Of a stretch of DNA of 64,000 nt, positions 4,380 to 40,067 are shown piece by piece. Each line of letters starts with the position of its first letter. Positions within the stretch are counted from its first letter, which is position 1. The notes below the pieces were generated by a model. That model saw only the letters and a list, made by a program, of their open reading frames with translations. It did no database searches and was not told the DNA's origin. Made by a program: the position numbers and the translations under genes. The stretch comes from Pedobacter rhodius (GTDB taxonomy: Bacteria; Bacteroidota; Bacteroidia; Sphingobacteriales; Sphingobacteriaceae): contig NZ_JAPWGL010000001.1 in NCBI RefSeq assembly GCF_027213645.1, positions 1,116,001-1,180,000 of the forward strand, given 5' to 3'.

Positions 4380-4410
4380 GAGTTGAAGTAATATCAGGCT
4401 TTATAAAAAT

Positions 4411-5694
4411 ATGCCAACAGAAGAAATAACCTATCAGGAAACAAACAGCGAAGAGGTTCAGGAAATCATAACTGCTGTACCACCATGGATATTAAGGTTT
4501 GGAATTACCTTAATCTTAATCGTATTGGCCGGTATCGTACTTTTGTCGGCATTGATTGAATATCCCGATGTGGTTAAGGTTAACCTAAAAATAAATTCCC
4601 TGAACTCACCAAAAGCGGTGCTCGCTAAGCAAAGTGGTAAGTTAACGGCTTTATTGGTGCAAGATGGGCAGATGGTCAGTATAAACCAGCCTTTAGCTTA
4701 TTTTGAAAGCACCGCGAAACCTGAACATATTCTACAGCTGAATAAAACCCTAAAAGAAATTCAGTCGGCCGTACTTAACAATACGAAAACACCATTCAGC
4801 TTACCAGAAAATTTAAACCTTGGCGAATTACAAAGCAGTTATCAGAATTTCTATCAACAATATTTACAATACCAGTCCACTCAAAAAAATGGTTATTACA
4901 TAAACCGGATGGCGTTTCTGGAAAAGGATTTGAGGGACATTAGTACTCTAAAATCTCAAATATACCAGCAGCAAAAAGTACAGAAATTAGAATATGCTAA
5001 CCAGGAAGAGGAATATAAAGCTTATCAAAAATTATATAAAAACAAGGTCATTTCCAGGAGTGAGTTCGCGCAACAGGAAAACAAATATTTAAGTTCTAAA
5101 TACCCGTTACAGCAAACCGAAACCGCTTTGCTAAACAATGCTGGTAACCATAGCGCAAAGGAAAAGGAGCTATTAGATTTAAAACATACCATCTCTGAAG
5201 AACGGGCTAAATTTCTCCAGGCACTAAATCAATGCCTGACGGAAAGTGATGCCTGGATATTACAGCACATTCTCACTGCTCCGGTAGCTGGAAAATTAAG
5301 TTTCGCTGGTATTGTTCAACAAAACCAAAATGTTTTGAACAACCAGGAAGTATTTATTGTAAATCCCGGCAACAGCGATTTTTTTGGTGAAGTACAGATA
5401 CCACAGTACAATATGGGCAAGATTCGTAAAGGAGAGCGAACGCTGGTCAAACTCCGTAGTTATCCTTTTGAACAGTATGGAATGGTTCGGGGAAGGTTAT
5501 CCTACATTTCTGATGTTGCATATCGGGATAGCGTATTTATAGCCAAAGTAAGTTTTGAGCAATTCGAAAACAAAGACCCTAACCGTAAAATCGTGCTAAA
5601 AAACGGTATGCAGGCAGATGCGGAAATTATAACCGAAGAAAGTTCCTTGTTGCAACGTTTCTTCAGGAACATAACCAGGATGTTGCGTGGTTGA
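4411..5694 (+). CDS. HlyD-family membrane fusion protein
   Basis: This 427-residue periplasmic adaptor couples the ABC exporter to an outer membrane channel. It has a cytoplasmic N-terminal tail, one transmembrane helix (about 25-50), a first biotinyl-lipoyl half (about 65-90, KQSGKLTALLVQDGQMV), a long helical hairpin rich in Gln, Lys and Leu (about 100-285), the second lipoyl half (LTAPVAGKLSFAG) and a beta-barrel domain. It lies 31 bases after the exporter and is surely co-transcribed. No TolC-like gene is next to it; the outer membrane factor at 38545 belongs to another operon. Confidence 0.92.
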   Translation: MPTEEITYQETNSEEVQEIITAVPPWILRFGITLILIVLAGIVLLSALIEYPDVVKVNLKINSLNSPKAVLAKQSGKLTALLVQDGQMVSINQPLAYFESTAKPEHILQLNKTLKEIQSAVLNNTKTPFSLPENLNLGELQSSYQNFYQQYLQYQSTQKNGYYINRMAFLEKDLRDISTLKSQIYQQQKVQKLEYANQEEEYKAYQKLYKNKVISRSEFAQQENKYLSSKYPLQQTETALLNNAGNHSAKEKELLDLKHTISEERAKFLQALNQCLTESDAWILQHILTAPVAGKLSFAGIVQQNQNVLNNQEVFIVNPGNSDFFGEVQIPQYNMGKIRKGERTLVKLRSYPFEQYGMVRGRLSYISDVAYRDSVFIAKVSFEQFENKDPNRKIVLKNGMQADAEIITEESSLLQRFFRNITRMLRG

Positions 5695-7422: not shown

Positions 7423-10400
7423 ATGAATAGAATTCTACCATTCTTGTATTTCAAAAGGAGTTATTCCCGTTTTTTTAATTTTTTTTACAGGTATAGGGCA
7501 GTTGCTTGCTTTGTGTTTGTATTATTCTTGAGTATAAATCATGCATTAGCCGATGGAAGTAAAGACCTGTACCAAGGTTCAACAGTTGGAAGAAGGGCAT
7601 ACATGTATAGTAATGATTATACGGCTGGCGGCACAACAATCAACTCCTGGCCATTCAAAACACTTGGTACACATTATGTATATGCAGTTGCAAATGAAAG
7701 TCTTGCACTGGCGTTTAGTTCTGCGGGGGTAGGTAATGCAGCAATTCGGATTACCACTCCGTCTGGCGCAGTTTCAATTGTTACAACTAATGCGCTCATA
7801 GGTAAGATTACAAACCAGGCCAATGAAGTTGCCGGACCGAAACTTAACGCATTAGATCCTGGCACAAACCGCTATACCCCGGCCTATTACAATGTTCAAA
7901 CAACGGGTATTTACAAGGTTGAATTTCTGCCTGTGGGCGATAAATCTGCTACGGCACTTAATGGTAACGAAACAAGTACGACAAATTTTAACTCAAATCA
8001 AAACTGGGATGCACCTACAGTAGATAACAGTACCAGTTTAATCGCCGCATGGGATATTTCGGTAATAAACTCCGCAGGTACTGCGTTTATACCGGGTAGG
8101 GTATATGTTAATCTGTTAAACCTTTTTGTTTATAATCAAAATTTCAATAACGGCTTTTACGGCACCGCTTTTGTGTTAACTAAAAACGGCAGGGCTTACC
8201 GCGTAAAAACAAATGGTATCCATGGTGCTGGTTTTACTTTCTTTGCCAATAATAAGGGAGTAGTAGACGGCTCAGGTGTGCCGACCTTTAAAAGTTTAAA
8301 CGCTTCTGATCGGGCCGCAGTAGTTGTTGCTGTTAAAGATCCTACCGCGCAGGACGTTACCAGTCCATCTTTGCAGGTAACCCATAAAATATTTTATAGG
8401 GAACCTGCGAATGATTTACCCACAACCGACCAGAATGTAACCATTGGTACTACTCCAACCACCACCTGGCTGAAAAAGCCATCAAACAACCCGGTTATTA
8501 CGAATGTAATGCTCACGGGTAAGGAGGGAACACCCAACAAAGCAGGACAAAAGGGGGGAACCATTTCATTCAACTCCACCGAAAACGGGACCTATTCCAT
8601 TACCATTCCGGCGCCAACACCACGGGTTTTAACAGGTGATGCTGTTGCAGGCGCCAATGCTGTTGCCTGGGATGGTAAAGATGGTAATGGAAATGTATTA
8701 CCTGCGGGAACTGTAATCAGCAGTGTTAGTGTTAAATTATTTGCCGCAGAAGTGCACTTTCCGTTTATTGATATGGAAATTAATCCGAATGGCATAAATG
8801 TGGAGTTGACCGAGAACACGACATATGCTGTTCAAACCGGCAACACAGACCCCACTGTTTATAACAATACCGTTTATTGGGATGATTCTCCTATCTCGAA
8901 TGCGGGTAGTACAAGAAGTTCTAATCCGGTTACTCAAAATACCGGTGTATCTTCCCTAAGTAACGGACATAAATGGGGAGTTTATACCAATGGAGGTGGT
9001 AACGGAAGTACCAATACAGGAACAGGACTATTTGATTTCGGGAATGAGAAAACTTTAGATACCTACGCCTATATTGCCGCAAGCCCCGTAACACAACCTG
9101 TAAGCGTTAACATTGCGGTATCCGATTTAAAAACAACAAGCATTACGCCGTCTTTTTCAAATCCTGTTGCGATCGGAAGTACAGTTACTTACACCGTTAT
9201 TGTTGAAAATTTAAACAATAACAGTAACGGAAGTACCAGCGCCGTTACCGGGGCAGGTTTTAAATTTACGGCGCCAGCAGGTTTTACCATAAACTCGGCC
9301 ACGATTACTTCTTCTACAGGAACAGTTAGCCAGCAAAATGGCGCTACAAATTCCGGAACGGTTTTTAGTTCTAAGCTGGATATGAGCAGCGGTTCTACAG
9401 CAACCTATACCATTGTGGGTACAGTTGGTACGGCATTGGCCGGAAAAAACATTGCGGTCGAAGCCAGTATGCTCAGACCGGCTGATACCACTGACCCGGA
9501 TGCCACTGATCCGGCAACTTCAGGTACACCAACTGATCCACACCAGGAATGTAAAAACGGAACTGCTAATGAAAATTGTAATAACATTGCTTATAATTCC
9601 GGCGTAGCCGTAAATAATTATGCTTCCGTTACGGCTTCAACTGCAACTGCAAATGAACCATCTACAAACGGCGCTTTCACCATCAGCATTCAAAATGCAA
9701 GTTCAAATTCAACTGTGGTAAGTTATACGATTACCGGCACGGCAACATCAGGTACTGATTATACGGCATTAACCGGCACGGCGACAATTCCTGCGGGCAG
9801 CACTTCTGTGGTGGTTCCGGTTACAATTACCGATGATAACCTGGTAGAAACCGCTGAAAGCGTAATTATGACCTTAAATTCTTCTACAAACGGCGTAACC
9901 ATCACACCTGCAGCAGCAAACGCAACGGCTACTGTAAACATTGCCGATGATGATGTGTCCACAGTAAGCGTTGCAGCAACCACAAATGCTGCTGAGCCGT
10001 CGACAAACGGCTTATTTACCTTTACCCTAAGTAAACCTAGTTCTACCGCAACAACTATAAATTACACTATTAGCGGCACGGCAACCAGCGGAACAGATTA
10101 TACGGCAATTGGTACTTCGATTGTTATACCGGCAGGTGCTACAACAGCTACTTTATCTATTCCCATAACCGATGATAACCTGGTTGAAGGCACAGAAACG
10201 GTAATTTTAACCATGGCTGCAGCTACCAGTAATAGCTCAATCACGGCGAATACATCTGCCGTAACCTTAAATATAGCGGATAACGATTCTGCAACCATTA
10301 CGCTTGCAGCTACAACAAACGGATCTGAACCATCTACAAATGGTGTCTTCACCTTTACACTAAGTAAAGCAAGCGCTACGCCTACAACTGTAAATTATAC

Positions 10401-13400
10401 CGTTGGCGGTACCGCTACAAGCGGAACAGATTACACCGCTATCGGAACATCCTTCGTTATCCCCGCAGGGGCCACCTCAGCAACACTTTCCGTTCCGGTA
10501 ACCAATGATCAGCTGGTAGAAGGTACAGAGACGGTAATTTTAACAATGGCTGCCTCCACCAGCAACAGCCTGATTACAGCCAGCACCAGTTCGGTAACTT
10601 TAAACATCGCCGATGATGATGTTTCCGCAATTACTGTAGCAACAAACAATGCCGCCGAACCGACAACAAATGGTTCATTTGTATTTACCATGAGTAAGGC
10701 AAGTGCGACACCAACAACGGTAAGCTACACCATCGGCGGTTCGGGAACGAACGGCACAGATTATTCTAATATAGCTACCTCGATAGTTATACCGGCCAAC
10801 ACAACATCTTTTACACTTCCTGTTACAGTTACAAATGACCAGATTGTTGAAGGAACAGAGAATATTATTTTAACCTTTAATTCGGCTACAGATAATGCCA
10901 ACGTTACCGTAACACCGGCTTCGGCTACGGTGAGTATTGCGGATGATGATGCAGCAACCGTAACTGTAACGGCCACCACCAATGCGGCGGAGCCATCCAC
11001 AAACGGGCTGTTTACTTTTACATTAAGTAAAGCCAGTTCAACGGCAACTACTGTGAGCTATACAATCAGTGGCACAGCAACCAGTGGCACAGATTATACG
11101 GCAATAGGCACATCGGTTGTTATCCCGGCGGGTGCAACTTCAGCTACGGTAGCGGTACCTGTAAGTGATGATAATATCGTAGAAGGCACTGAAACGGTAG
11201 TTTTAACGATGACAGCTTCCACCAGCAACGCTTTAATTACCGCAAGCACCACCGCTTCTACACTGAATATTGCCGATGATGACACGGCAACTATAACGAT
11301 TGCCGCTACGGCGAATGGCGCTGAACCATCTACCAACGGACAGTTTACCTTTACCATGAGCAAAGCCAGTTCTACGGCAACGGTTATTTCCTATACCGTA
11401 AGTGGTACAGCAACCAGCGGAACGGACTATACCGCTATCGGTACTTCAGTAACAATTCCGGCAGGAGCCACTTCCGCTACTGTATCTGTAGCCGTTGCAG
11501 ATGATAACATTACAGAAGGTACAGAAACGGTTATTTTAACGATGACTGCTTCAACCAGTAATCCATCAATCACGGCGAGTACAACCGCTGCAACTGTAAA
11601 TATTACGGATAATGATGCTTCTGTTGCTTCTGTTACAGCCGGTACCAACGGTAATGAAAACGGGCCAACCAACGGAACGTTTACAGTTACGTTAAGCAAT
11701 CCGACTACCGCAGATACGCAGATCACTTACACGCTGGCAGGAACGGCTACGGAAGGAAGTGATTATACCACCATTACCACCAAAACGGTTACGATTTTGG
11801 CCGGCCAGGTAAGTGCTACGATATCCATTCCCGTAAGGACAGATAATTTTGTAGAAGGCACAGAAACGGTTGTTGCGACCCTGTCCAACTCAAACAATGG
11901 TCTGGTTTCGTTCAGCAACGCTCCGGCTACCATTAACATTGCAGATAATACGACCGCTACAGTAAGCGTAACCGCAACAACCAATGCCGCAGAACCATCT
12001 ACAAATGGTTTGTTTACTTTTACCTTAAGTAATGCATCAACAACAAATACAGTAATCAACTATTCAGTTGGCGGTACGGCAAGCAGCGGAACAGATTATA
12101 CCTCAATTGGCACTTCAGTTACCATCCCTGCAGGTTCAACTACGGCAACAGTTTCTGTTCCGGTTAAAGATGACAACCTGGTTGAAGGTACCGAAACAGT
12201 TGTTTTAACCATGGCTGCTGCAACCAGTAACACATCGATTACAGCAAGTACAGCTTCCGTAACTTTAAACATTGCCGATAACGATACTGCCATAGCCACC
12301 ATTGCGGCGGCGCAAAACGGAAATGAAACCGGGCCGACTAACGGAACCTTTACCGTTACCCTAAGCAATGCTTCTGCAACGGATACACAGATAAGCTACA
12401 CATTAGGCGGCACCGCGACAGAAGGAAGCGATTACAGTACAATCAACACTAAAACGATTACCATTCCTGCCGGACAAACTACAGGTACCATCACTATTCC
12501 CGTGCTTACAGATGCACTTACTGAAAGTACAGAAACAGTTGTAGCCACTTTAAGCAGTACCGATAATGGATTGATTTCGGTAAGTTCTACACCGGCAAGC
12601 ATCAATATTGTAGACGCAAATACCGCAAGTGTGAGTATTTCAGCAGCATCAACCATCAACGAAGGTGCCGGAACAATTACCTTCACGGTAACACTAGATA
12701 ATGCCGTACAAAATTCATTTACCGTTGATTATGCAACGGTGAACGGAACTGCGGTTGCCGGTTCTGATTATACAGCAACCTCAGGAACATTAACTTTCGC
12801 CGCAGGTTCAGCTGCCGGAACATCAAAAACATTTACCGTTCCGATTGTTAATGATAACATTGCCGAACCTAACGAAACATTCAGCGCCAACTTAAGTAAT
12901 ATAACAGGTTCAGTTGTAGTTATCTCAAATGCAAGTGCAACAACAACAATTGCAGATAATGATGCGGCGACGGCAACCATTACCGCAGGAACTACCGGTA
13001 ACGAAAACGGGCCTGTTAACGGAACATTTACTGTAACACTCAGCAACCCTTCATCAGCAGATACCCAAATTACCTATACCTTATCAGGAACGGCTACAGA
13101 AGGCAGCGATTACAGTACAATCGCTACCAAAACCATAACCATCCCGGCAGGCCAAACCACCGGAACGATAACCATCCCGGTTTTAAGCGATGCGATTGTG
13201 GAAGGAAACGAAACTATCGTGGCTACATTATCGGCTTCAAACAATGCAACTGTAGTGATTGGTAACACACCTGCAACCATTAACATTCAGGACAATACAA
13301 CTGCTGTTGTTACCGTAGCTGCAAGCCAGAATGGCACTGAACCCGCAACATCGGGCGTATTTACGTTTACCTTGATTAATGCATCGGCAACGAATACCAC

Positions 13401-16400
13401 TATTAATTTTACAGTCAGCGGTACCGCAGGCAGTGGAACGGATTATTCATCAATCGGAAATTCGGTTACCATTCCGGCCGGGCAAACCAGTGTAACTTTA
13501 CCGGTTCCGGTTTTGGATGATAATTTAGCGGAACCAACAGAAACTGTTGTTTTAACGATAACAGGCACAAATAACACGGCTATTACAGCAAGTACCACAC
13601 CGGCAACCGTCAATATTACGGATAATGATGCCGCAACGGTGGCCATTAACAATATTTCGGTAAATGAAGCTGCAGGCAATGCAACATTTACGATCACCCT
13701 TACCGGAAATGTACAAAATGCATTTACCGTAAATTATACGACTGCGAACGGAAGTGCAAGCTCCGAAAATGATTTTACCGCTACAACAAATTCGGTAACA
13801 TTTCCTGCCGGTTCAGTAAGCGGTGCTACACAGACATTTGATATTCCTTTGGTAAATGATAACGTTGCCGAACCGTCAGAAACTTTCACAGTTAACCTCA
13901 CTTCAGTAAGTGCAGGTTCGGCTGTAACCATTGCGGCGGCCGGAGCAAGCGGTACAGCAACGATAGCCGATAATGATGCGGCAAGTGTAGCAATAAATAG
14001 TGTTACGGCTGCAGAGAATGCAGGGAATATGGTATTCACCGTTACATTGACAGGAAATATCCAAAATGCTCTAACCTTAAATTATGCAACAGCTGATAAC
14101 AGCGCAATTGCGGGTTCAGATTATACGGCTAAAACCGGAACCATCACATTCCCGGCAGGTTCAGCAAATGGTGCAACACAGACCATATCTATCGGCGTAA
14201 CAGATGATAATGTAAGAGAATCTTCCGAAAACTTTAAGGTTACTTTAAGCGGAACAACTGCACCTGTAACCATCGCCCAGGCAGAAGGTATTGGTACGAT
14301 AACGGATAATGATGTTGCAACCGTAAGCATTTCAGCTACACCGGCGAGTGTAAACGAAGGCGCGGGCACAGCTACCTTTACAGTTACCCTGAACGGAGCG
14401 GTGCAGGATGCCTTCGATGTTGATTATGCAACAGTTAATGGCACAGCTTCAGATGGTAATGATTTTACAGCAAAAACAGGCACATTAACATTCCCCGCAG
14501 GTTCAGTAAACGGTGCCACGCAAACCTTCACCATTTCAATTATTAATGATAACCTGGTTGAACCTTCAGAAAACTTCTCCGGAACGATAAGCAATGTAAC
14601 CGGCGGATTGGTTACCATAGCAACGGCTACGGCGGCAGTTACGATTACAGATAATGATACTTCGGTAGCGAGCATCGCTGCAGGCATAAATGGTAATGAA
14701 AACGGTCCTGTTAATGGAACATTTACCGTAACATTAACTAATCCATCGGCCACCGATACCCAAATTACCTATTCATTGGGCGGTACTTCAACAGAAGGAA
14801 GCGATTACAGTACCATCACAACAAAAACAATTACCATTCCTGCCGGACAAACAACTGGAACAATCTCTATACCAGTATCTACCGATGCTGTGGTGGAGGG
14901 TACTGAAACCATTATTGCTACATTAACGAGTACCAATAACGGTTCGGTTACCTTCAGCAATAGTCCGGCTACTATTAACCTTTCAGACAACACAACCGCT
15001 ACCGTTACGGTCGCATCCACAGCAAACGGAGCAGAACCAAATACCGCAGGCCAGTTTAAATTTACTTTAAATAATGTATCGACCACGAATACGGTTATTA
15101 CTTATTCTGTAAGCGGAACCGCAAGCAGCGGAAATGATTATACAGCCATCGGTACAACTGTAACTATACCTGCCGGACAAACAACGGCAACCGTAAGTGT
15201 TCCTGTACTGAATGATAACATTGCAGAAGGGACAGAAACAGTTGTTTTGACCATGACCGCGGCTACCAGCAACGGGGCAATAACGGCAAGCACCAACCCC
15301 GCAACATTAAATATTGCAGATAATGATAGCTCAACAGCAAGTATTTCACCGGGTACAAATGGCGACGAAAACGGACCTGCTAACGGAACTTTCGTGGTTA
15401 GCCTGAGCAATCCGTCATCAAACCCGACAACTATAACCTATACCCTGAGCGGTACAGCTATTGAAGGAACCGATTATGGTACCATCGTAACCAAATCCGT
15501 AACCATTCCTGCAGGTCAAACTTCGGCTACGATTTCCATCCCTGTCAGCAGTGATAACCTGGTTGAAGGTAATGAAACCATTGTTGCAACCCTTGGTAAT
15601 TCAAACAACCCGTTAGTCGGCGTAAATACAACAGCAGCTACCATCAATATCATTGATAACAATGCAGCAACGGTAAGTATTTCATCGGGTGCAACCATTA
15701 ATGAGGGCGACGGAACAGCAACCTTTACGGTAACATTAAGCACCGCCGTTCAGAATGCATTTACCGTAAATTATGCCACCTCTAACGGTACCGCCGTTGC
15801 CGGTTCGGATTATACTGCAACCAGCGGAACGTTAACCTTTCCGGCCGGTTCAGCAGCAGGAGCAACGCTCACTTTTGCCGTTCCGGTTACAGATGATAAT
15901 TTGGTAGAATCTAATGAAAACTTTACCGCTACGCTGAGTAACGTAAGCGGCGGTTTGGTTACCATCGCAACGGCATCAGCTACTGTTTCTATTCTCGATA
16001 ACGACACTTCTGTGGCAACACTGGCTGCGGGCGTAAACGGAAATGAAACCGGTCCTGTTAACGGAACATTTATCGTAACCCTGAGCAATCCGTCATCTTC
16101 AGATACAGAAATCAGTTTTACCTTAAACGGAACAGCAATAGAAGGCACTGATTATGCGGCCATTTCGCCTAAAACGGTGACCATACCGGCCGGACAAACA
16201 ACAGCAACCATTACCATCCCGGTTTTAACAGATGCTTTAACAGAGAATAACGAAACAGTAATTGTCAGGATAAATACATCTAATAATCCCCAGGTAACCA
16301 TAAATAACACTGCGGCAACCATAAATATTCTGGATGCCAACTCCGCGAGTGTAAGCATATCAACCGCCACTACAATCAATGAAGGCATAGGTACAACCAC

Positions 16401-19400
16401 CTTCACGGTTACTTTAAACAATGCGGTTCAAAATGCATTTGATGTAGATTATACAACGGTTAACGGAACTGCAACTGCAGGTTCGGATTATGTGGCGAAG
16501 AGCGGAACATTAAGTTTCCCGGCCAATTCAGCAGCCGGAACAGCGCTATCGTTTACGGTAACCGTAACCGATGATATTATTGCCGAGCCTTCTGAAGCAT
16601 TTTCTGCTACTTTAAGCAATATAACAGGTGGTATTGTTCTGATTAGTAATGCTACGGCCACCACAAACATTACCGACAATGATGCGTCAGAAGCGAGCAT
16701 TGCGGCAGGGATTACCGGTGATGAAAATGGTCCGGTTAACGGCACATTTACAGTAACGTTAACCAAAGCATCATCAGATGATACACAAATTACCTACGCT
16801 TTAAGCGGAACAGCAACTGAAGGAAGCGATTACAGTACAATAGTAACTAAAACCATTACCATTCCGGCCGGACAACTGAGCGGAACGATTACCATTCCGG
16901 TATCAGCAGATGCCATTGTTGAAGGTAATGAAACGGTTATTGCAACCATTACGGCATCAGGAAATCCTTTAGTAACCATAAATAACGCCCCTGCAACGAT
17001 TAACATAACCGATCGTACAACAGCCACGGTAAGTGTTGCTTCAACAAGAACAGGAGCGGAACCAAATACATCCGGACAGTTTACGTTTACATTAAGTAAT
17101 GCATCATCAACGGATACGCAAATTACCTATGCCGTTAGCGGAACCGCGATAAGCGGATTGGATTATACTTCAATAGGCACTACGGTAATTATTCCTGCCG
17201 GCCAAACTACCGCATCAGTAACTGTACCTGTAGTGGATGATAACATTGCAGAAATTACTGAAACAGTTGTATTAACAATGGCTGCTTCAACCAACAATCC
17301 TTCGATTACAGCAAGTACAACACCTGCAACGGTTAACATAACCGACAATGATACTTCCGTAGCCAGTATAGCGGCAGGAAACCAGGGCGATGAAAATGGT
17401 CCGGTTAACGGAACTTTCACGGTAACATTAACGAATCCTTCATCGGCAGATACACAAATTACCTATACATTAGGTGGTAATGCGACAGAGGGAAGTGATT
17501 ACAATACCATTAATTCAAAAACAATTATTATCCCTGCAGGGCAAACCACGGGTACCATTACCATACCGGTAAAAGCAGATGCAATAGTTGAACCAACAGA
17601 AACAGTTACCGCAACGATTTCTGCTTCTAACAATCCGCTCGTTTCCATAACTAACGGTACGGCAAGTATTAATATATCTGATAACACGGCGGCAACTGTA
17701 ACCGTAACTGCAACAGCTGGCGGAGCAGAGCCAAATACGCCGGGTCAGTTTACGTTTGCCTTAAGCAATGTTTCTGCCAGCAATACCGTAATTACCTATT
17801 CGGTTGGCGGAACTGCTGTGAGCGGAAATGATTACACCTCGGTTGGTACTACAGTGACCATTCCGGCAAACCAGACAAGTGTAACCGTATCTGTTCCGGT
17901 GCTTGATGATGATTTGGCCGAAGGCACAGAAACGGTTGTCTTGACCATGGCACCGTCAACAAATAACCCGGCAATTTCGGCGAGTATTACACCTGCAACT
18001 GTAAGCATTACAGATAATGATACGTCAGTTGCCAGTATTGCCAAAGGAGTGGATGGTACGGAAAACGGACCTGCAAACGGAACATTTGTTGTAACATTAA
18101 GCAGAGCATCGTCTGCAGATACTCAGTTGACTTTTACGTTGGGCGGAACTGCAACAGAAGGCACGGATTACAGCTCAATTGTAACTAAAAATATCACCAT
18201 ACCGGCCGGCCAGACAACGGCTACGATAAGTATTCCGGTATTAACAGATGTAATTATTGAAGGTGGCGAAACGGTTATTGCAACCATAACGGCTTCAAAC
18301 AATCCTTTAGTTACAGTAAGCAATACACCGGCAACTTTAACCATTGCTGATAATACAACAGCAACCGTTACGGTGGCCGAAACCGCTAATGGTGCCGAAC
18401 CAAACATAGCCGGGCAGTTTACATTCACATTGAGCAATGTATCAACAACAGATACACAGGTAAGTTTCAGCGTAAGCGGAACCGCCACCAGCGGAACGGA
18501 TTACAATGCAATTGGTACTTCAATAACCATACCTGCCGGACAAAAAACCGTAACCCTGGCCATTCCCGTTTTAAACGATAACGTTGTTGAAGGTACGGAG
18601 ACCGTTGTTTTAACGATGAATCCGGCTACCAACAATACGGCTGTAACTGCGAATACAAATCCGGCAACAGTAAGTATCAGCGACAATGACAGTGCTATTG
18701 CAACAATCGCACCCGGGGTAAATGGAAATGAAAACGGACAGGTAGCCGGCACCTTTATCGTAACTTTAAGTAATCCCTCATCAACACCGACACTGATTAC
18801 ATACACATTAGGTGGAACGGCAACTGAAGGAAGCGATTATTCTGCAATTACGAATAAAACGATAACCATTCCGGCAGGCCAGACAACCGGTACAATTACT
18901 GTCCCAGTTGTATCAGATGCCGTAGTAGAAGGAACGGAAACCATTATCGCTACGCTCGCGGGTACCGGCAATACCGGTATTACGGTTGATAATTCGCCGG
19001 TAAGCATTAATATTTCAGATAACAATTCGGCATCGGTAAGCTTAAGTGCGGCATCAACCGTGAATGAGAATACAGGTAATGTTACCTTTACGTTAACCTT
19101 AAATGCAGCAGTACAAAATGCCTTTACTATAGATTATACCACCGCAAACGGAACAGCTGTGGCAGGTTCAGATTTCACGGCAAAAACCGGAACTTTAATT
19201 TTTCCTGCAAATTCCGCCTCAGGCGCAACTTTAACCTTTACCGTTCCGGTTATTGATGACAATTTAGTTGAACCATCGGAGGCATTTTCAGCAACGCTGA
19301 GTAACATACAGGGTGGATTGGTTACCATCGGTACTGCAACAGCAACAGTTACAATTACGGATAATGATGCCGCTGTGGCCAGCATCGCTGCTGGTTCTAA

Positions 19401-22400
19401 CGGTAATGAAACCGGTCCTGCCGATGGAATGTTTACCGTTACGTTAAGCAATCCTTCGTCAACAGATACCCAGATAAACTATACACTGAGCGGAACGGCA
19501 ACTGAAGGAAGCGATTACACCGCCATTACGAATAAAACGATTACCATCCCGGCCGGACAAACAACAGGCACGATAAGTATTCCTGTGGTTGCAGATGCAC
19601 TGGCAGAAAGTACAGAAACGGTAATTGCAACATTAACGTCAACAAGTAATACATCGGTAGGCGTAAATAATGCACCGGCCGGTATTAATGTTATTGATGC
19701 AAATACGGCCAACGTGAGCATATCAATCAGTGCACCGAGCGTTAGCGAAGGCGTAGGTTTAGTAACCCTGTCGGTATTTTTAAATGTTGCGGTACAAAAC
19801 AGTTTTACGGTGGATTATGCTACCGCTAATGGAACCGCATTGGCAGGTTTAGACTACACCGCTACAAACGGTACCCTAACTTTCCCGGCAAACTCTCCGG
19901 CAGGTACCGTATTAACTGTGAATATCCCAATCCTGGAAGATTTACTGGTTGAACCATCTGAAGCATTTACAGTAGGTTTAAATAATGTGGTTGGTGCTGA
20001 TGTTGCCATCGGAACAAGCCCTGCCACGGTCACCCTAGCCGATAATGATACTTCAGTGGCTACAATCACGGCAGGAAGTAATGCAAATGAAAGTGGTATG
20101 GCAAATGGCGTCTTTAATGTGACATTAACCAACCCGTCATCTACACCAACAACGTTAACCTTTACTTTAAGCGGTACTGCCGGCGAGAGTTCTGATTATG
20201 GTTCAATTAATAAAACCGTTATTATTCCTGCGGGCACAACTGCTGCTATAATAGTAATCCCTGTGATGACAGATGCCGTTGCAGAAGGAACAGAAACCGT
20301 TATTGCTACATTAACCAATTCAAGTAATCCCGCAATTACCGTAAGTTCATCGCCGGCAACAATCAGTATTCTTGATGAAGATTTTGCAACGGTTAGCATT
20401 TCATCAAGCCCATCAGTTAATGAAAGTGCCGGAACAGCAACGTTCACCGTTACCCTTAACCAGGCTGTTCAAAATGGATTTAGCGTAGATTATGAAACAG
20501 CAAACGGTACGGCTGCTGCCGGTTTGGATTATACAGCAGGCAGCGGAACCTTAACTTTCCCGGCCAACGCTCCTGCGGGTACTAAGTTAACCTTCACCGT
20601 GTCAATTAACGATGATAATCTTATAGAGCCTTCGGAAACCTTAACTGCCGCTCTCAGCGGTATTACGGGTGGTGTGGTTACTATTGGTACCTCACCCGCC
20701 ACGCTTACGATAGTTGACAATGACATGGCTGAAGCGACCATACTCGCAGCGAATAATGGTGATGAAGACGGGCCGGTAGATGGTAAGTTTACGGTTAACT
20801 TGAGTAAACCTTCATCTACTGATACACAGCTTACATTTACATTAACGGGTACTGCTACCGAAGGAAGTGATTATACAACCATTACTAAAACGGTTACTGT
20901 TTTGGCAGGTTCAACTACAGCAACAATAATAATCCCGGTACTTACTGATGTTATTGTAGAAGGAACAGAAACGGTAGTGGCTACTTTATTGAATACAAAT
21001 AATTCTGCCATTACTGTTAATAGTACTCCTGCAAGCCTGAATATCCTTGATGATAATTCCGTGTCGGTAACCATTTCAGTTTCGACAGTTAGTGTGGATG
21101 AAGCTGCGGGTACCGCAACTTTCAGGGTAACCTTGAGCGGTGCTGTACAAAACGCATTCAGTGTGGATTATACGACTACCGACGGAACTGCAAAAGAAGG
21201 TTTAGATTACATCAGAACCAGCGGAACACTGAATTTTCCTGCAGGCTCAGCAGCAGGTGCAAACTTAACATTTACAGTTCCGATTGTTGATGATAACCTG
21301 GCCGAGCCAACAGAAGCATTTAATTCCGTTATTACCAATGTTACAGGCGGTTTAGTAAAAATCGGAAATGGTACGGCAACACTTTCTATTATAGATAACG
21401 ATGCGTCGGTAGCAAGACTTGTTGCCGGTACCTCGGCAAATGAAAGCGGTCCTGTAGCCGGAACATTTATCGTTAACTTAAGTCATCCTGCATCAACAGA
21501 TACGCAACTCACCTATAGCCTGAGTGGAAGTGCGGCGGAAGGCAGCGATTACAGCACCATTGTTTCCAAAACAATTGTAATCCCTGCAGGGGCAACAACC
21601 GGTACCATTACCATACCGGTACTGGCTGATAACCTGGTGGAAGTAACAGAAACAGTGATTGCCATATTAACCGGCACTAACAATGCAACCATTACAGCCG
21701 ATAACACGCCGGCAACCATCAATGTACTGGATAATACAAATTCTGTTGTTACTGTAGCCGTAACGGCAGATGGTGCCGAACCAGCTACCCCGGGCCAGTT
21801 AACATTCTCGTTGAGTAATCTATCCACAACAGATGTTCAGGTTACCTATACCGTAACCGGAACTGCAACCAGCGGCGTAGATTATACAGCAATCCCGACA
21901 ACAGTGACCATACCGGCCGGACAAAGTTCCGTAACAGTATCTGTTCCGGTATTAAATGATAACGTTATTGAAGGCACAGAAACGGTGGTTGTTAAGATGA
22001 ACCCGGCAACAAACAACCCGTCAGTTATCGCAAGTACAATTGCTGCCACGGTAAACATTACAGATAGCGGTTCATCGGTTGCAACTGTTGCCGCAGTAAA
22101 CGATGGCGCTGAAGCCGGTCAGGTTGCCGGTAAATTCCGTGTAAGCATCAGCACACCATCTGCAACTGATACAGAGTTTACTTACACATTGAGCGGAACA
22201 GCAGTTGAAGGAACTGACTATGCCGCAATTACAACTAAAAAAGTGACCATTCCTGCCGGTCAGATATCTGTAACTTTTGATATCCCGGTACTGGCAGATG
22301 CGGTTGTTGAAGGCACTGAAACGGTTATCGCACAATTGATATCGGCTAACAACGCTTTAATTACAGTAAGTAGCGTTGCTGCTAAAATTAACATCACCGA

Positions 22401-25400
22401 TAACAATGCTGCAATGGTTAGTATTTCAGCTGCACCAAACGTTAATGAAAGTGCCGGAACAATAACCTATATGGTAACATTAAATACCGCGGTTCAGAAC
22501 GCGTTCAATGTTGATTACAATACTTCGAACGGTACAGCTACAGCCGGTTTGGATTACACGGCCGGCAGTGGAACTTTAACCTTTCCTGCGGGCGCTGCTG
22601 CGGGCTCAATCATGACATTCATTGTGGCGATAACCAATGATAACCTGGCTGAACCAAATGAAACTTTCACAGCTACGTTAAGTAATGTAACAGGTGGTAT
22701 TGTTACCATCGGTACCGCCAGTGTAACAACAACCATTACAGATAACGATACATCAGTTGCTACAATAGCTGCGGGTATCGATGCGAAGGAAAATGGTCCG
22801 GTGGCCGGAACATTTACGGTAATACTAACCAATCCATCATCAACAGATACGCAGCTTAGCTTTACTTTAACCGGAACAGCCACTGAAGGAACTGACTATG
22901 CTACAATAGTGAAAACCATTGTCATTCCTGCCGGACAAACTTCTGCTACGATTACTGTTCCTACATTAACAGATGGGATGGTTGAAGGCAATGAAACCCT
23001 AATTGCAACGTTAAGCGGTTCAAACAGCGCCCTGGTTACCTTTAGCGGCACACCTGCAGTTGTTAATATCTTTGATAATACGGCTGCTACAGTTGCCGTA
23101 ACAGCGGTAACTGATGGTGCGGAGCCTGCCGCTCCGGGTCAGTTCAGGTTTACTTTGAGTAACGTTTCTACAAGTGATACCCAGATCAGTTTTACGGTTT
23201 CCGGTACAGCAACTTCAGGAAGTGATTACACGAGTATCGGTACTACGATTACCATACCGGCAGGTCAAACATCTGCAATCCTGAACGTTCCGGTGCTGGA
23301 TGATAACTTACAGGAAGGAACCGAAACCGTTGTGTTAACCATGAACGCAATGACTAATAACCCATCGATTACGGCAAGTACAATACCTGCGGTTGTGAAT
23401 ATATCAGATAACCGTTCGCCGGTTGCCAGTGCAGCAGCGCTTACTACCGCAGAAGATACACCTGCAAATGGTACCATAACGGCAAGTGACCCTGATGGAA
23501 ATACTTTAAGTTATGTTTTAGGAAACGGTCCTGGTCATGGAACAGTTATATTGAATACAAATGGAACTTATACGTATAGTCCTGCTGCGAACTACAATGG
23601 TGCTGATGTATTTACTGTAGTGGTTAGTGATGGTAAAGGTGGTGCAACAACCATAACCATTAACGTTACAATTAACGCAGTTAACGATATACCGATTGCG
23701 AGTTCACCTGCAGTTACAACTGCAGAAGATACACCTGTTAGCGGAATGATAACAGCAAGCGATGCAGATGGTGACACATTAACCGCTTCCGTTACCACGG
23801 CGCCGTTGCGTGGTATAGTTACGTTAAATCCGGATTTAACTTACATTTATACACCTACAGCCAATTATAATGGTACAGATGTATTTACTATAGCTATAGG
23901 CGATGGTAAAGGCGGTACAATTACGATAACAATCAATGTAACAATAACGCCTGTAAATGATGCTCCTGTGGCAAATGCACCTGCAGCTGCAACAGTAGAA
24001 GATACCCCGGTTAATGGAACCATTACGGCCAGTGATGTTGATGGAGATGCCTTGGCCTATGTGGTAAGCAAACCACCAGCTTACGGTACTGTTGTTGTGA
24101 ACACAAACGGAACCTATACTTATACACCTAATGCCAATTATAATGGCACAGATGTATTTAACGTCAACATTAGTGATGGTCATGGCGGAAACGTTACGAT
24201 AAGCATAAGTGTAAATATAACTCAGGTTAATGATGCGCCTGTTGCCAGTTCACCTGCAATTACCGCGACAGAAGACACACCTGTTAACGGAACTGTTACA
24301 GCGAGTGACATAGATGGCGATACATTGAACTTTGCGGTAAGTACAGCGCCTTTACATGGATCGGTAGTCGTAAACGCCGATGGAACCTATACATATACAC
24401 CAGCTTCAAATTATAATGGTACAGATGTATTTACCATAACCGTAAGCGATGGAAAAGGTGGTACAACTGCTGTAACTATAAGTGTAGCGCTTACACCTGT
24501 TAATGATGCGCCGACAGCCAGTACGCCTGCAGTTACAACGCCACAAGGTACACCGGTAAACGGAACAATTACGGCAAACGATGTAGATGGCGATCCATTA
24601 ACGTTTACCATTACTACTGCTCCGGCACACGGAACCTTAACTGTAAATCCTAACGGAACATATACATTCACTCCGACACCTGGTTATGTAGGTAGTGATA
24701 CCTTTACAATAACAGTTAGCGATGGAAATGGTGGAATAACTACCCTTACAATTCCGGTTACGGTAACACTTATCAGCGCACCATCTTATGTGTTTACCAA
24801 AGTTGTTAGCGGTCAGGTTCCGACAGTGGCCGGTGCGGTACTGAATTACAATCTTATTGTAACCAACAATGGAAATGTAGCCTTAAACAATATTGTCATA
24901 ACTGATGCAAATGCAACGGTAACAGGTTCTCCGGTTGCAACGCTTTCACCAGGTGCAACTATGATGGTAACTGCAACACATATTTTAACACAAACAGATA
25001 TCAACAATGGAAGCGTAAGTAACCAGGCGTCCGCAAATGCAAAAGACCCTCAGGGAAATAGCATTGTCAAATTATCTGATGATCCGAATACGCAGACTGC
25101 TAATGATGCAACGGTTACACCAATCGGTTCAAACGGTTCTATTTCACTGGTTAAAACCGGAACCCTGAGTGGTGATCGCAATAGCATTACCTATAATTTC
25201 ACTGTTAAAAACACGGGTAATGTTACTTTAAGAATCATTACTTTAACAGATAGCAAACTGGGCTTAAGTCGTATAATTCCTGGTATTTTAGCACCAGGTG
25301 GTATTTTAACAGACAGTTACCAATACGTGTTAACCCAGGCAGATAAAGACGCGGGTAGTGTTACCAATACAGCTAATGTAACAGGTCAGACACCAACTAA

Positions 25401-26370
25401 TGTTACCGTTTCAGATGTATCCGGAACGGCTGAAAATAATAATGCACCAACAATAACTTCAACTGCATCAATAGGTTCAGTTGCATTGGTTAAAACGGCT
25501 GTGTTTAACGGTAATCAGATTACCTATACCTTTATCATTAAAAATACAGGTTCAACTACCTTAAATACGGTTGCATTAACGGATACGAAACTTAATATCA
25601 TTAATAAATTGATTCCGGTAGCAGGCGGATTGGCTTCAGGCGCAACTGTAACCAATACAGAACTTTATACTTTAACACAGGCTGATAAGGATTTAGGTTC
25701 CGCAACCAATACGGCAACGGTGAATGCTAAAACGGTTACAGGAGCTGATGTAAGCGATATATCTGGAACTGCAGATAACAATAATACAGCAACAGTAGTT
25801 ACTTATCCTAAATCTCCTGTAGCAGTAGATGATGTTGTACAAAGCCCTGCAAATGCACCGGTAATAATTAAGGTATTAAATAACGATAATTCAGGTAACT
25901 CATCTTTCAATACTTTAACGGTAGAAATTGTTACTCAGCCTAAAAACGGTACAGTAAAGGTAAATAGTGATGGAACGGTAACATTCACACCAGCACAGGG
26001 TTTCATCGGTCAGGATTCCTTTACTTACCGCGTAAGGGATGCTTATGGCTATTATACCAATGTGGCCTCCGTTGCACTTACTGCAAATTTATATGGCTTA
26101 ACCATCCCGACATTATTTACACCGAATGGCGATGGAACCAATGATACTTTTGAAATAAGAGGATTGAATCAGTATCCGGGTAATACCTTACAGATTATTA
26201 ATCGTTGGGGTAATGAAGTATTTCATGCTAATGATTATCAAAATAACTGGACAGGTGAAGGTTTAAACGAAGGAACATATTATTATCTGCTCCGTATTAC
26301 AAATCCTCAAACTAAACAGGTTGAAGTTTTAAAGGGGTATATAACATTAATAAGAGCATTTAAGAAATAA
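7423..26370 (+). CDS. Giant T9SS-secreted adhesin with 41 Calx-beta repeats (6315 aa)
   Basis: This is a surface adhesin by architecture. An unusually long signal peptide (basic n-region to about residue 26, hydrophobic core, cleavage near HALA-DG at about 43) leads a unique N-terminal region (about 45-560) and a DUF11-like segment (about 565-690). Then come 41 Calx-beta-like repeats (about 733-5331), five cadherin-like repeats (5332-5786), three DUF11-type repeats (5787-6128), one more Ig-like domain and a C-terminal gliding-motility-type sorting domain (about 6226-6315). Secretion through the T9SS as a type B substrate is expected. The next genes encode a PorP/SprF-like and a PorE-like protein, the usual companions, in the order seen around SprB-type adhesins. 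Calx-beta and cadherin-like folds usually bind calcium at domain junctions. The ligand is unknown. Confidence 0.95.
9619..23415 (+). repeat. Array of 41 Calx-beta-like repeats (about 112 codons each)
   Basis: I counted repeats by their closing linker, typically NITDND or NISDNT. Three subtypes are visible. Type a opens NEGAGTxTFTVTL with [10 protein letters not shown] and is the canonical Calx-beta form (11 copies). Type b opens [20 protein letters not shown], with GTATEGSDY and a TDA turn (16 copies). Type c opens [18 protein letters not shown], with [14 protein letters not shown] and a DDN turn (14 copies). The order is c c c c c c b c b a b c a a a, then strict alternation from repeat 16: b c b a b a b c b c b c b a b a b a b a b c b a b c. 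Type b always lies between non-b repeats. Confidence 0.9.
23416..24780 (+). repeat. Five cadherin-like (VCBS/Big_9-type) repeats
   Basis: Five repeats of about 90 residues each contain [17 protein letters not shown], a HGTV turn, [17 protein letters not shown] and SDGKGGxTTITINV, joined by TPVNDAP linkers. The fifth is the most diverged: PQGTP replaces EDTP and [12 protein letters not shown] replaces the usual segment. Acidic DxDGD motifs suggest calcium binding. They follow the Calx-beta array directly. Confidence 0.88.
24781..25809 (+). repeat. Three DUF11-type (conserved repeat) domains
   Basis: Three domains of about 115 residues show the pattern of the DUF11/DUF7507 group: [25 protein letters not shown], then a TDSKL segment, and [17 protein letters not shown] near the end. 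They form the membrane-proximal stalk between the cadherin-like repeats and the sorting domain. Copies two and three are closest to each other. Confidence 0.85.
26098..26370 (+). other. T9SS type B C-terminal sorting domain of the adhesin
   Basis: The last 90 residues contain [14 protein letters not shown], then [21 protein letters not shown] and [10 protein letters not shown], ending in a strand with [12 protein letters not shown]. This is the gliding-motility-type C-terminal domain (CHU_C, type B). Established knowledge is that such domains direct export by the T9SS and depend on a cognate PorP/SprF-like protein, which is encoded next. Confidence 0.93.
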
Positions 26371-26423: not shown

Positions 26424-27401
26424 ATGATGATGAAAAAATTAGTATTGTTACTAGCGGGTTCTTTTTTACTGATGGTTAGACCGGCATCCGCCCAGCAGGA
26501 TGCACAGTACAGTCAGTATATGTTCAATGGAATCTACATTAATCCTGCATACGCGGGTTACAAGGAAGTATTGAATTTGCATAGTTTTTACCGCAGTCAG
26601 TGGACCGGTATTCAAGGCGCACCAAAAAGTATGTCGCTGGCAGTAGATGCGATAGCAAACAATGGAAACGTTGGCCTGGCGTTACAGGTTGCGAGTGACA
26701 AGCTCGGTGCGCAGAATAACCTGAGCGTGTATGGAAATTATGCTTATCGAATCAGGATGAATGATGAAGGAACTTCCCGCCTGGCCTTAGGTTTAGGTGT
26801 TGGTATGGTAAACCTTGCGATAGATGGTTCATTGCTAAACCCTAATGATCCGGAACTTACACAACCGGTTGGAACGCAAAGTACAATTGTTCCTGATGCA
26901 AGGGCAGGCGTGTACTTTTCCAACGATAAGTTTTATGCAGGATTATCTGCCGATAATTTAATTGCCCAATATGTAAATATCGATAAATATGCTTTTATTC
27001 CTCAGCCAAAACCACATTATTATTTAACTGCCGGTGCACTTTTTCCTTTGAATGATGAGTTTCAGATAAAACCGTCTTTTTTGTTGAAAGACGATCGTGG
27101 CGGACCTACAAGTTTAGATTTAAATGCATTTTTAATGATTAAAGATATTATCTGGATTGGTGGTTCATATCGTACGGGTATTAAACTTTATGATAAGCGT
27201 TACTTACAAAAAGACCTTACCCCGAGAAATTCGGTTGTGGCAGCAGTTCAGATTTTTCCATCGGATAAAATTCGTATTGGTTATGGTTATGATTTTTCTG
27301 TTGGTCCTTTACAAGGCTACAGCGGCGGAACGCATGAGATATCTATCGCATTTTCTTTCCTAAAATCAAACATCAGAATGGCAACCCCAAGGGTTTTTTA
27401 A
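26424..27401 (+). CDS. PorP/SprF family type IX secretion outer membrane protein
   Basis: This 325-residue protein has a signal peptide ending ASAQ and then QDAQYSQYMFNGIYINPAYAG, the hallmark opening of the PorP/SprF family, followed by alternating strands of a beta-barrel and a C-terminal ISIAFSF strand. SprF is needed for secretion of the adhesin SprB in Flavobacterium; paralogues are usually encoded right after their type B substrate. Here it starts 54 bases after the giant adhesin, so it is most likely that adhesin's dedicated outer membrane partner. ATG triplets repeat at the start (26424, 26427, 26430); any could be used. Confidence 0.94.
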   Translation: MMMKKLVLLLAGSFLLMVRPASAQQDAQYSQYMFNGIYINPAYAGYKEVLNLHSFYRSQWTGIQGAPKSMSLAVDAIANNGNVGLALQVASDKLGAQNNLSVYGNYAYRIRMNDEGTSRLALGLGVGMVNLAIDGSLLNPNDPELTQPVGTQSTIVPDARAGVYFSNDKFYAGLSADNLIAQYVNIDKYAFIPQPKPHYYLTAGALFPLNDEFQIKPSFLLKDDRGGPTSLDLNAFLMIKDIIWIGGSYRTGIKLYDKRYLQKDLTPRNSVVAAVQIFPSDKIRIGYGYDFSVGPLQGYSGGTHEISIAFSFLKSNIRMATPRVF

Positions 27402-27439: not shown

Positions 27440-29401
27440 ATGAAAAAAAAATCGTTAAGCATCCCGGTTATCGTTTGTTGTGCACTCGCCTTGAGTCTAG
27501 GTGCAAAAGCACAATCTGTTTTAAAAGATGCCGACAAACAATATGAGCTTTATAATTACATAAAAGCTATTGAACTTTATGAGCAAGCTTATAAGACTAA
27601 GGAAAGCTTGCATGCAGCTGAACGCCTGGGCAGTTCATATAGCTTAAACAATAATTACCAACAAGCAGAACATTGGTATGCTATCGCCTCAGCAATGCCG
27701 GGTAGTAAGCCCGAAAACATATTCGGTTATGCTAAAGCATTACAAAGTAATTCCAAATATGCACAGGCAAAAGCGCAATATCTGAATTATGCCGACAAAA
27801 ACAAGTCAGTTTCACCAGAGCAGCTCAACGTTTGGACCGCTTCCTGCGATTCGGCCATAAGCTGGATAAAGAAACCAAAACAACAATTTGAAATAAAAAA
27901 TGAACGTGCATTAAACAGTATTCAAGCTGATTGGGGTGCTGTAAAGTACAAAGGTTCAGTGGTATTTACATCAGATAGAAACAAGGCAAAATCTGATTCT
28001 ATCGGCAGGAAGCCATTTTTAAAGTTTGACGGTTCAAAAATAATCGATCAAAACAGGTATGGATGGACAGGCCATAACTATTTAAAGCTATATCATACCA
28101 CAGAATCTGATAATATTCAGCTATTGATGATTAACGGAGTAGGCCCATACCATATCGGTTCAGCAAGCTTCACGGCGAACGGGCAAACCATGTACTTCAC
28201 GATGACCAAAATCCCTGATGAACCGGAAAAAATGAAAAATAAGCCAAGTTTGGTTAACGTTGAAATTTACAGCAGTATTAAAAATACAAATGGAACCTGG
28301 GCTGAACCAGTGCCTTTTGAATATAATAAAGTTAACGATTACTCGGTGGGCGACCCTTTTATTTCTGCGGATGGGCAGCGCTTATATTTTGCTTCAAATA
28401 TGCCTGGCGGTAAGGGTGGCACTGATATTTATTTCTGCGCTAAAACGGTTGATGGTAAATGGGGAAAGCCCAGTAACCTGGAACAGATTAATACATTTGG
28501 AAATGAACGCAGTCCTGTTTTAGATTTGAATGATAACCTTTTTTTTGCGACCGACGGCAGGGTAGGAATGGGTGGATTGGACATATTTTCTGCGTTAAAA
28601 GACACGAATGGCTTTAGCCATATCAGCAACCTTGGTTTTCCGCTAAATTCACCGCAGGATGATTTTGCTTTCAGTCTTAATGAGCAGGGCTTTATTCAGT
28701 ATATTTCTTCAAATCGCAATGGCGGCTTAGGTAGCGATGATATTTATTCTGTTAAGCAAAAACCTGTTGTGGTATTAACACTGGAAGGCAGGGTTTATGA
28801 TAAAAAACTAAATAAACCTATTGATGCTGCTATTGTTACAATTACCACAGAAACCGGTAATCCGATAAAACTGAATACAGATGATAACGGTACTTATAGA
28901 TTCAAATTAGATACAGCCGCCGACTACCGTATATATGTAAAAAAGCCCGGTTATCTGGCTAACACTCAGCATTTAAATACCAAAGGTATAAGATTATCAA
29001 CCATATTGGTTAAAGATGTATACCTGGAGCAAATAGAAGTAAACAAAGCTGTCAGGTTAAATAATATTTATTACGATTTCGATAGTGCTGTCATTCTGGA
29101 GGCTGCAGCACGAGAGCTTGATAACCTGGCTAAAATTATGCAGGATAATCCGGAAATCTATGTAGAACTGGGCTCGCACACAGATAGCAGGGGTAAGGCG
29201 GCATACAATTTGAAATTATCGCAAAAAAGGGCTGAATCTGCGCGGCTGTATATCATAGGAAAAGGTATTGATCCGAGTAGAATTATGGCCAAAGGATATG
29301 GCGATGTACAGTTACTCAATCGTTGTGTAAAAACCGCAAAATGCTCCGATGTTGAACATCAGGTTAACAGGCGAACGGAATTTAAAATCGTAAAACAATA
29401 A
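27440..29401 (+). CDS. PorE-like OmpA family protein with TPR and PD40 propeller
   Basis: The domain order matches PorE-type T9SS proteins: signal peptide (about 1-25), TPR-like helices (about 27-150), PD40/WD40-like propeller blades (about 170-440, for example DPFISADGQRLYFASNMPGG), a carboxypeptidase-regulatory-like beta domain (about 450-530, LEGRVYDKKLNKPIDAAIVT), and an OmpA C-terminal domain (about 540-653, NNIYYDFDSA, ELGSHTDSRG, LSQKRAES). The OmpA domain binds peptidoglycan and PorE links the T9SS to the cell wall in Porphyromonas. Lying 38 bases after the PorP/SprF-like gene, it completes a three-gene adhesin cassette. It may be a paralogue rather than the core secretion component. 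Confidence 0.9.
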   Translation: MKKKSLSIPVIVCCALALSLGAKAQSVLKDADKQYELYNYIKAIELYEQAYKTKESLHAAERLGSSYSLNNNYQQAEHWYAIASAMPGSKPENIFGYAKALQSNSKYAQAKAQYLNYADKNKSVSPEQLNVWTASCDSAISWIKKPKQQFEIKNERALNSIQADWGAVKYKGSVVFTSDRNKAKSDSIGRKPFLKFDGSKIIDQNRYGWTGHNYLKLYHTTESDNIQLLMINGVGPYHIGSASFTANGQTMYFTMTKIPDEPEKMKNKPSLVNVEIYSSIKNTNGTWAEPVPFEYNKVNDYSVGDPFISADGQRLYFASNMPGGKGGTDIYFCAKTVDGKWGKPSNLEQINTFGNERSPVLDLNDNLFFATDGRVGMGGLDIFSALKDTNGFSHISNLGFPLNSPQDDFAFSLNEQGFIQYISSNRNGGLGSDDIYSVKQKPVVVLTLEGRVYDKKLNKPIDAAIVTITTETGNPIKLNTDDNGTYRFKLDTAADYRIYVKKPGYLANTQHLNTKGIRLSTILVKDVYLEQIEVNKAVRLNNIYYDFDSAVILEAAARELDNLAKIMQDNPEIYVELGSHTDSRGKAAYNLKLSQKRAESARLYIIGKGIDPSRIMAKGYGDVQLLNRCVKTAKCSDVEHQVNRRTEFKIVKQ

Positions 29402-39978: not shown

Positions 39979-39993
39979 TTTAGATAATGGGGT

Positions 39994-40049
39994 AGTAAGT
40001 ATCAAGTAGTAAGTATCAAGTAGTAAGTATCAAGTAGTAAGTATCAAGT
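39994..40049. repeat. Four perfect 14-bp tandem repeats
   Basis: The unit AGTAAGTATCAAGT occurs four times in a row without a change, followed by a 7-base partial copy (40050-40056) and a degraded one. The unit itself is nearly two 7-base halves. It sits between the stop of the efflux operon and its terminator. Copy number of such short repeats often varies between strains. Confidence 0.9.
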
Positions 40050-40067
40050 ATCAAGTATTGAGTATGA

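Follow-up and report, generated by a model that had tools for sequence, protein, structure and literature searches.

Alternating Calx-beta subtypes in a giant Pedobacter adhesin: a conserved domain order and its probable upkeep by like-with-like copying

It is already known that repeat proteins expand by two-domain units, and in a survey of domain repeats this unit was the commonest in repeat expansion (Bjorklund et al. 2006, PMC1553488). The array described here, in an adhesin gene of Pedobacter rhodius, resembles those repeats in its lag-2 autocorrelation peak and in the copying of several domains together, but differs from them in that its unit reaches near-100% DNA identity in relatives, alongside single-domain growth in one gene family, and in that the partners of the pair differ in their calcium ligands. 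The CBD1-CBD2 tandem of NCX1/CALX (PDB 3US9, 3RB5, 3RB7) has the same fold and also joins a calcium-rich to a calcium-poorer Calx-beta domain, with ligands at the joint; however, it is an intracellular regulatory pair, whereas the Pedobacter adhesin is a long extracellular array of 41 domains in three subtypes. In CBD1 the Ca2+ ligands are E385, D446, D447, E451, D498 and D500 (PMC3386913); D446 takes part in coordinating Ca4 and D500 in coordinating both Ca3 and Ca4, and D499/D500 additionally tether the following domain through R532 (PMC3386913; PMC4746289). The extender arrays of T1SS adhesins (MpIBP RII, MhLap, AhLap, SiiE) are likewise long tandem beta-sandwich rods, several of which are stiffened by Ca2+ at the joints (PMC7493085, PMC5466336), although they consist of other domain families and use another secretion system, and joint Ca2+ is only predicted in Pedobacter. 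By domain and neighbouring gene the adhesin is like the SprB-type T9SS adhesins, i.e. giant cargo with a CHU_C/TIGR04131 domain beside a PorP/SprF gene. In a limited open-access literature we found no description of Ca2+ sites that alternate between complete and depleted in such arrays, and no open-access paper linking Pedobacter with Calx-beta.

The window, i.e. the whole stretch of 64,000 nucleotides that was analysed, contains the adhesin gene and the neighbours listed in Table 1. The 41 Calx-beta repeats (R1-R41) occupy positions 9610-23409, corresponding to aa 730-5329. The Pfam Calx-beta profile PF03160 matched the adhesin in 38 plus 3 stretches, and the whole genome gave 40 PF03160 matches, each above the curated cut-off. 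The Pfam domain order is Calx-beta in mid-protein, then Big_9/cadherin-like and DUF7507 repeats, then CHU_C; the C-terminus scored 90.4 bits against CHU_C PF13585 (cut-off 27) and 52.1 bits against TIGR04131 of NCBIfam (cut-off 35), and the adjoining PorP/SprF family protein scored 259 bits against TIGR03519 (cut-off 90.55). The adhesin is therefore predicted to be a T9SS type B cargo by its C-terminal domain and the adjoining PorP/SprF-like gene, and surface association of type B cargo with PorP-like proteins is reported (PMC9143113). Upstream of the adhesin (2193-5694) lie genes for a C39-peptidase ABC transporter and then an HlyD-family protein, likely a peptide-export pair. Elsewhere in the window, a tandem array of a 14-bp unit, GTAGTAAGTATCAA, with 4.8 copies and a 96% match, is found at 39992-40058, directly after an ORF end at 39978.

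Table 1. Coordinates of the adhesin gene, its parts and its downstream neighbours, in positions of the window.
Feature	Positions	Strand	Basis
Giant adhesin ORF, 6315 aa	7423-26370	+	ORF call and domain searches
N-terminal region, 729 aa, precedes the repeats	7423-9609	+	Matches in 12/59 relatives searched
R1-R6, run of type c, single-domain growth zone	9610-11610	+	Repeat cutting and blind typing
R7-R12 (b c b a b c), first alternating stretch	11611-13623	+	Repeat cutting and blind typing
R13-R15, 'aaa' breaker, kept in orthologues	13624-14652	+	Typing and relatives
R16-R41, strict b / non-b alternation, 13 pairs	14653-23409	+	Typing, ML tree, relatives
R16, example of b and first b of the long alternating stretch; lacks D446 and D500 equivalents	14653-14988	+	
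R17, example of c; D446 equivalent is N, D500 equivalent present	14989-15321	+	
R19, example of a; sequence match to NCX1 CBD1	15658-15999	+	
Big_9 / cadherin-like repeats 3' of the array	23410-24780 (approximate limits)	+	Profile matches
CHU_C / TIGR04131 type B T9SS sorting domain	26101-26349	+	Profile matches
PorP/SprF family outer-membrane protein, likely anchor partner	26424-27401	+	Profile match
OmpA/PD40 protein of the CHU_0125/PorE kind, scoring below those families' cut-offs	27440-29401	+	Profile matches

An original prediction, made from the sequence, had sorted the repeats by hand into subtypes a, b and c. We cut the array into 41 repeats before typing and then used average-linkage clustering on identity, in which position was not used. 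At k=3 the result was ccccccbcbabcaaabcbababcbcbcbababababcbabc (R1-R41), i.e. the hand-read string letter for letter. Mean identity was.57 (aa),.62 (bb) and.61 (cc) within types and.34 (ab),.34 (ac) and.45 (bc) across types. In a maximum likelihood (ML) tree of the repeats the groups did not mix; b and a each formed one clade (both 100/100), and c was paraphyletic, with b arising out of late c. From R16 to R41 every even-numbered repeat was b and every odd one a or c with zero exceptions, as had been claimed, although the limits given for this stretch (14660-23415) are more exactly those in Table 1. Within it mean identity at lags 1, 2, 3 and 4 was.38,.55,.38 and.53, i.e. similarity peaks at lag 2. 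The alternation was, as predicted, far from chance: perfect alternation of 13 b in 26 positions has a probability of 2/C(26,13)=1.9e-7, zero b-b pairs across the whole array one of 5.2e-5, and the longest alternating run, of 27, was reached in 0/200,000 shuffles. The further claim that repeats 1-15 depart from the rule held for R1-R6 (cccccc) and R13-R15 (aaa), which are the only non-alternating parts of the array, but not for R6-R12 (c b c b a b c), which alternates too; the conserved 'aaa' alone parts the two alternating stretches.

Tandem Repeats Finder detected just one 15-bp pair in the adhesin gene, because the repeats are too diverged in DNA. DNA identity between like repeats in the window averages 63% and does not exceed 72% (unlike repeats, 56% and 63%); recent exchange is therefore not visible and the array looks frozen. 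The alternating part of the window's array is thus ancient and not recently grown. The sequence of b repeats did not differ significantly with the type of the neighbour (p.13 and.88). Co-divergence of neighbouring positions was modest (rho.57-.68, p.04 and.013), occurred in both pair frames (b-x and x-b), and could be caused by regional rate variation.

The same code was found in relatives. In a search of the 145 genomes of the genus, 24 matched the b-repeat profile at E <= 1e-30, and the repeats in the fetched genes were typed with a, b and c profiles. There were 17 Pedobacter arrays spanning 'aaa', the window and two second gene copies (paralogues) being counted in, and in all 17 the repeats after 'aaa' run from an opening b to a closing c and are even in number (18, 22, 24, 26, 28 or 36; odd never). 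The orthologues, whose comparison had been set beforehand as a possible refutation, therefore alternate as well. The stretch before 'aaa' is variable: it holds six c in both the window's array and that of P. rhizosphaerae, eleven a in relative G027, and eight a in each of P. kyungheensis and P. soli. The 41-letter string of P. rhizosphaerae is identical to that of the window. The collinear repeat was the best match in relatives 3-9 times above chance (7-21 repeats per array vs 1.8-2.8 expected; 21/31 vs 2.3 expected in P. rhizosphaerae), and the repeat order is therefore older than the species splits. Across 24 array pieces with 728 neighbours and 307 b repeats there were no b-b and no a-c neighbours, alongside 83 aa and 13 cc; since the arrays share ancestry, the zero for b-b stands for one inherited state and not for 307 independent draws. 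P. kyungheensis and P. soli each have a pair of adhesin genes with a common code, close together on one contig (L111-L114, L119-L122), the distal lengths being 36 vs 22 and 36 vs 18 repeats. In further orthologues, outside the typed set (L101-L103, L105-L108, L129-L131), the open frames are 10,000-12,300 aa long and the Calx-beta array is preceded by ~4,600 aa of other sequence.

Recent copies in the relatives revealed how such arrays grow. The array of relative G009 is (bc)n, and from one pair to the next b and c alike are nearly unchanged (up to 100% DNA identity); within G392 and within G001 the b+c pairs likewise match one another, at up to 100% and up to 97%, respectively. The comparison was between like types only, and an alternating run necessarily places these an even number of repeats apart; what speaks for pair copying is that b and c have been amplified together though mutually dissimilar, b and c repeats of G001 sharing at most 63% DNA identity. 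The G009 and G392 arrays are each on a single large contig, which makes assembly error less likely in them. In G027, P. kyungheensis and P. soli the near-identical repeats (up to 98% DNA identity) are instead adjacent single domains in a-runs. Both growth modes of the original prediction, i.e. distal growth by two-domain units, to which the even-numbered differences in distal length also point, and single-domain growth elsewhere, are thus found, each in the proposed kind of place. Its statement that such a history is not expected of a plain tandem array was too strong, the two-domain unit being the commonest in the survey cited above. The homogenised (bc)n array of G009 (L132-L133, G009:C1:1630000-1664999) is split over two frames of 5127 and 2781 aa; the break inside the array is either real or a sequencing error.

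We mapped the NCX1 CBD1 residues onto the repeats by sequence alignment and by matching the domain end, with the second residue past the domain's last Asp as the D500 equivalent. The equivalents of E385, D421, D447, E451 and D498 are 98-100% kept in a, b and c. At the D446 equivalent, D, N or E is present in 275/278 a and 148/156 c repeats but in only 8/303 b repeats, and D occupies the D500 equivalent following 276/278 a and 119/135 internal c repeats but following only 15/301 b repeats (window alone, Fisher p = 1e-11 and 3e-8 for the D446 and D500 contrasts). The junction residue therefore tracks the type of the preceding domain, whatever domain comes next. Types a and c retain nearly all CBD1 ligands (446 = D or N), and type b has its own near-invariant Glu48 and Lys/Arg58. 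An idea that Glu48 of b reaches the site of the preceding domain was dropped; it aligns three residues before the D421 equivalent, in b's own site. By predicted ligand residues, the array alternates Ca2+-complete (a, c) and Ca2+-depleted (b) domains. We infer that b would bind fewer Ca2+ ions and make a looser joint; it may still bind some Ca2+, with five ligand equivalents kept, and its ligand loss could be drift and not function.

Structure prediction placed the repeats in the Calx-beta fold: the model of R21 (type a) matched CBD1 (3gin) with Z 17.0 and rmsd 1.6 over 113 aligned residues, and that of a single b domain (pLDDT 87) matched CALX CBD1 with Z 11.2 and rmsd 2.5 over 104. For R19-R24 (mean pLDDT 89, pTM 0.50) the AlphaFold domains were confident but their mutual arrangement was not; the joint types were not clearly different in this model, and one b-a joint alone scored low. 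By analogy with NCX1, a tentative reading is that the a/c ligand set would clamp the joint to the next domain, with b joints looser and the rod held on the cell by its type B T9SS signal and the PorP/SprF protein. With b lacking the two clamp ligands, the rod is proposed to alternate calcium-clamped and looser joints. It is somewhat more doubtful that the adhesin is a jointed rod with two-domain units as segments, of clamped a/c-to-b joints and calcium-poor b-to-a/c hinges, in which extracellular Ca2+ would tune flexibility and selection on the joints would act together with copying bias to keep the alternation.

Calx-beta arrays of period 2 (L063, L064) and period 3 (L054, L062) also occur in other phyla, but their ligand patterns differ, and Pedobacter-like calcium alternation was rejected for them. 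The arrays of Salipiger and Citreicella (L063, L064) have eight repeats with lag-2 identity.65-.67 vs.37 at lag 1, and their details are unlike the Pedobacter pair. Those of a Dehalococcoidia MAG (L054, L062) have 35-36 repeats with lag-3 identity.82-.87 and other lags at ~.3, and one domain in three is without terminal aspartates. In a MAG labelled Novosphingobium there is a relative of 15 repeats (L046), 59% identical to the Pedobacter pair, through either a mis-binned contig or transfer.

We consider it very likely that the alternation arose through two-mode growth with like-with-like copying, in an order fixed before the sampled Pedobacter species split. In an ancestral Calx-beta array a distinct subtype b would have arisen from type c, and one b with its neighbour (c or a) would have become the copied unit. 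Recombination would be confined to like repeats, which, judging by DNA identity, are the sole ones sharing enough DNA. Each later exchange in the b stretch would then gain or lose whole b-x pairs, and one-type runs (c in the window, a in relatives) would grow domain by domain. Once the order was set, before those species split, the window's copies would have diverged, and the array now looks frozen. Under like-with-like exchange the left-hand neighbour of a hybrid repeat comes from one parent and its right-hand neighbour from the other, and therefore no new neighbour type is made; the alternation is thus self-perpetuating and b-b cannot arise. Of such exchanges within R16-R41, 0/228 were odd-sized, whereas one step of random single-domain gain or loss left 35% of arrays with b-b, and 20 steps left 99%.

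The original prediction had also offered the alternative that structure demands pairing, i.e. that selection purges b-b because b needs a or c on each side, either for a calcium clamp that the preceding domain supplies or because identical neighbours would misfold by domain swapping. The zero b-b among 307 b repeats agrees with this, as does the lack of D446 and D500 equivalents in b next to neighbours that retain both, and in other tandem proteins misfolding is limited by divergence between neighbours (PMC4660218). However, like-type neighbours (aa and cc) are tolerated, reaching 98% DNA identity in G027, and identical neighbours are therefore not forbidden in general, which weakens misfolding avoidance as the main cause. 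The a-c neighbour is also absent, with no structural reason apparent, and copying bias alone predicts both absences; copying is therefore favoured over a special ban on b-b. A demand for pairing is not needed and we regard it as unlikely. A functional code, in which each position has its own role and selection holds the exact string whatever the copying mechanism, would fit the identical string of P. rhizosphaerae, the core common to all orthologues and the greater likeness of collinear repeats; but whole pairs have been gained and lost among species and paralogues (18 to 36 repeats), and in some relatives much of the array has been replaced by identical pairs, which leaves such a code quite improbable. 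Chance or an artefact of hand typing was ruled out by blind clustering and permutation, the code moreover recurring in other species, and has practically no probability left.

What is new here is an alternating array of predicted calcium-complete and calcium-depleted Calx-beta domains that is conserved within the genus and still growing by pairs in some members, which we did not find described in the open-access literature. The results offer a simple rule, that exchange between like repeats makes no new neighbour types, and domain order can therefore persist without selection on order. Should the calcium alternation prove functional, it would amount to a design principle by which stiffness is tuned along the length of very long bacterial adhesins.
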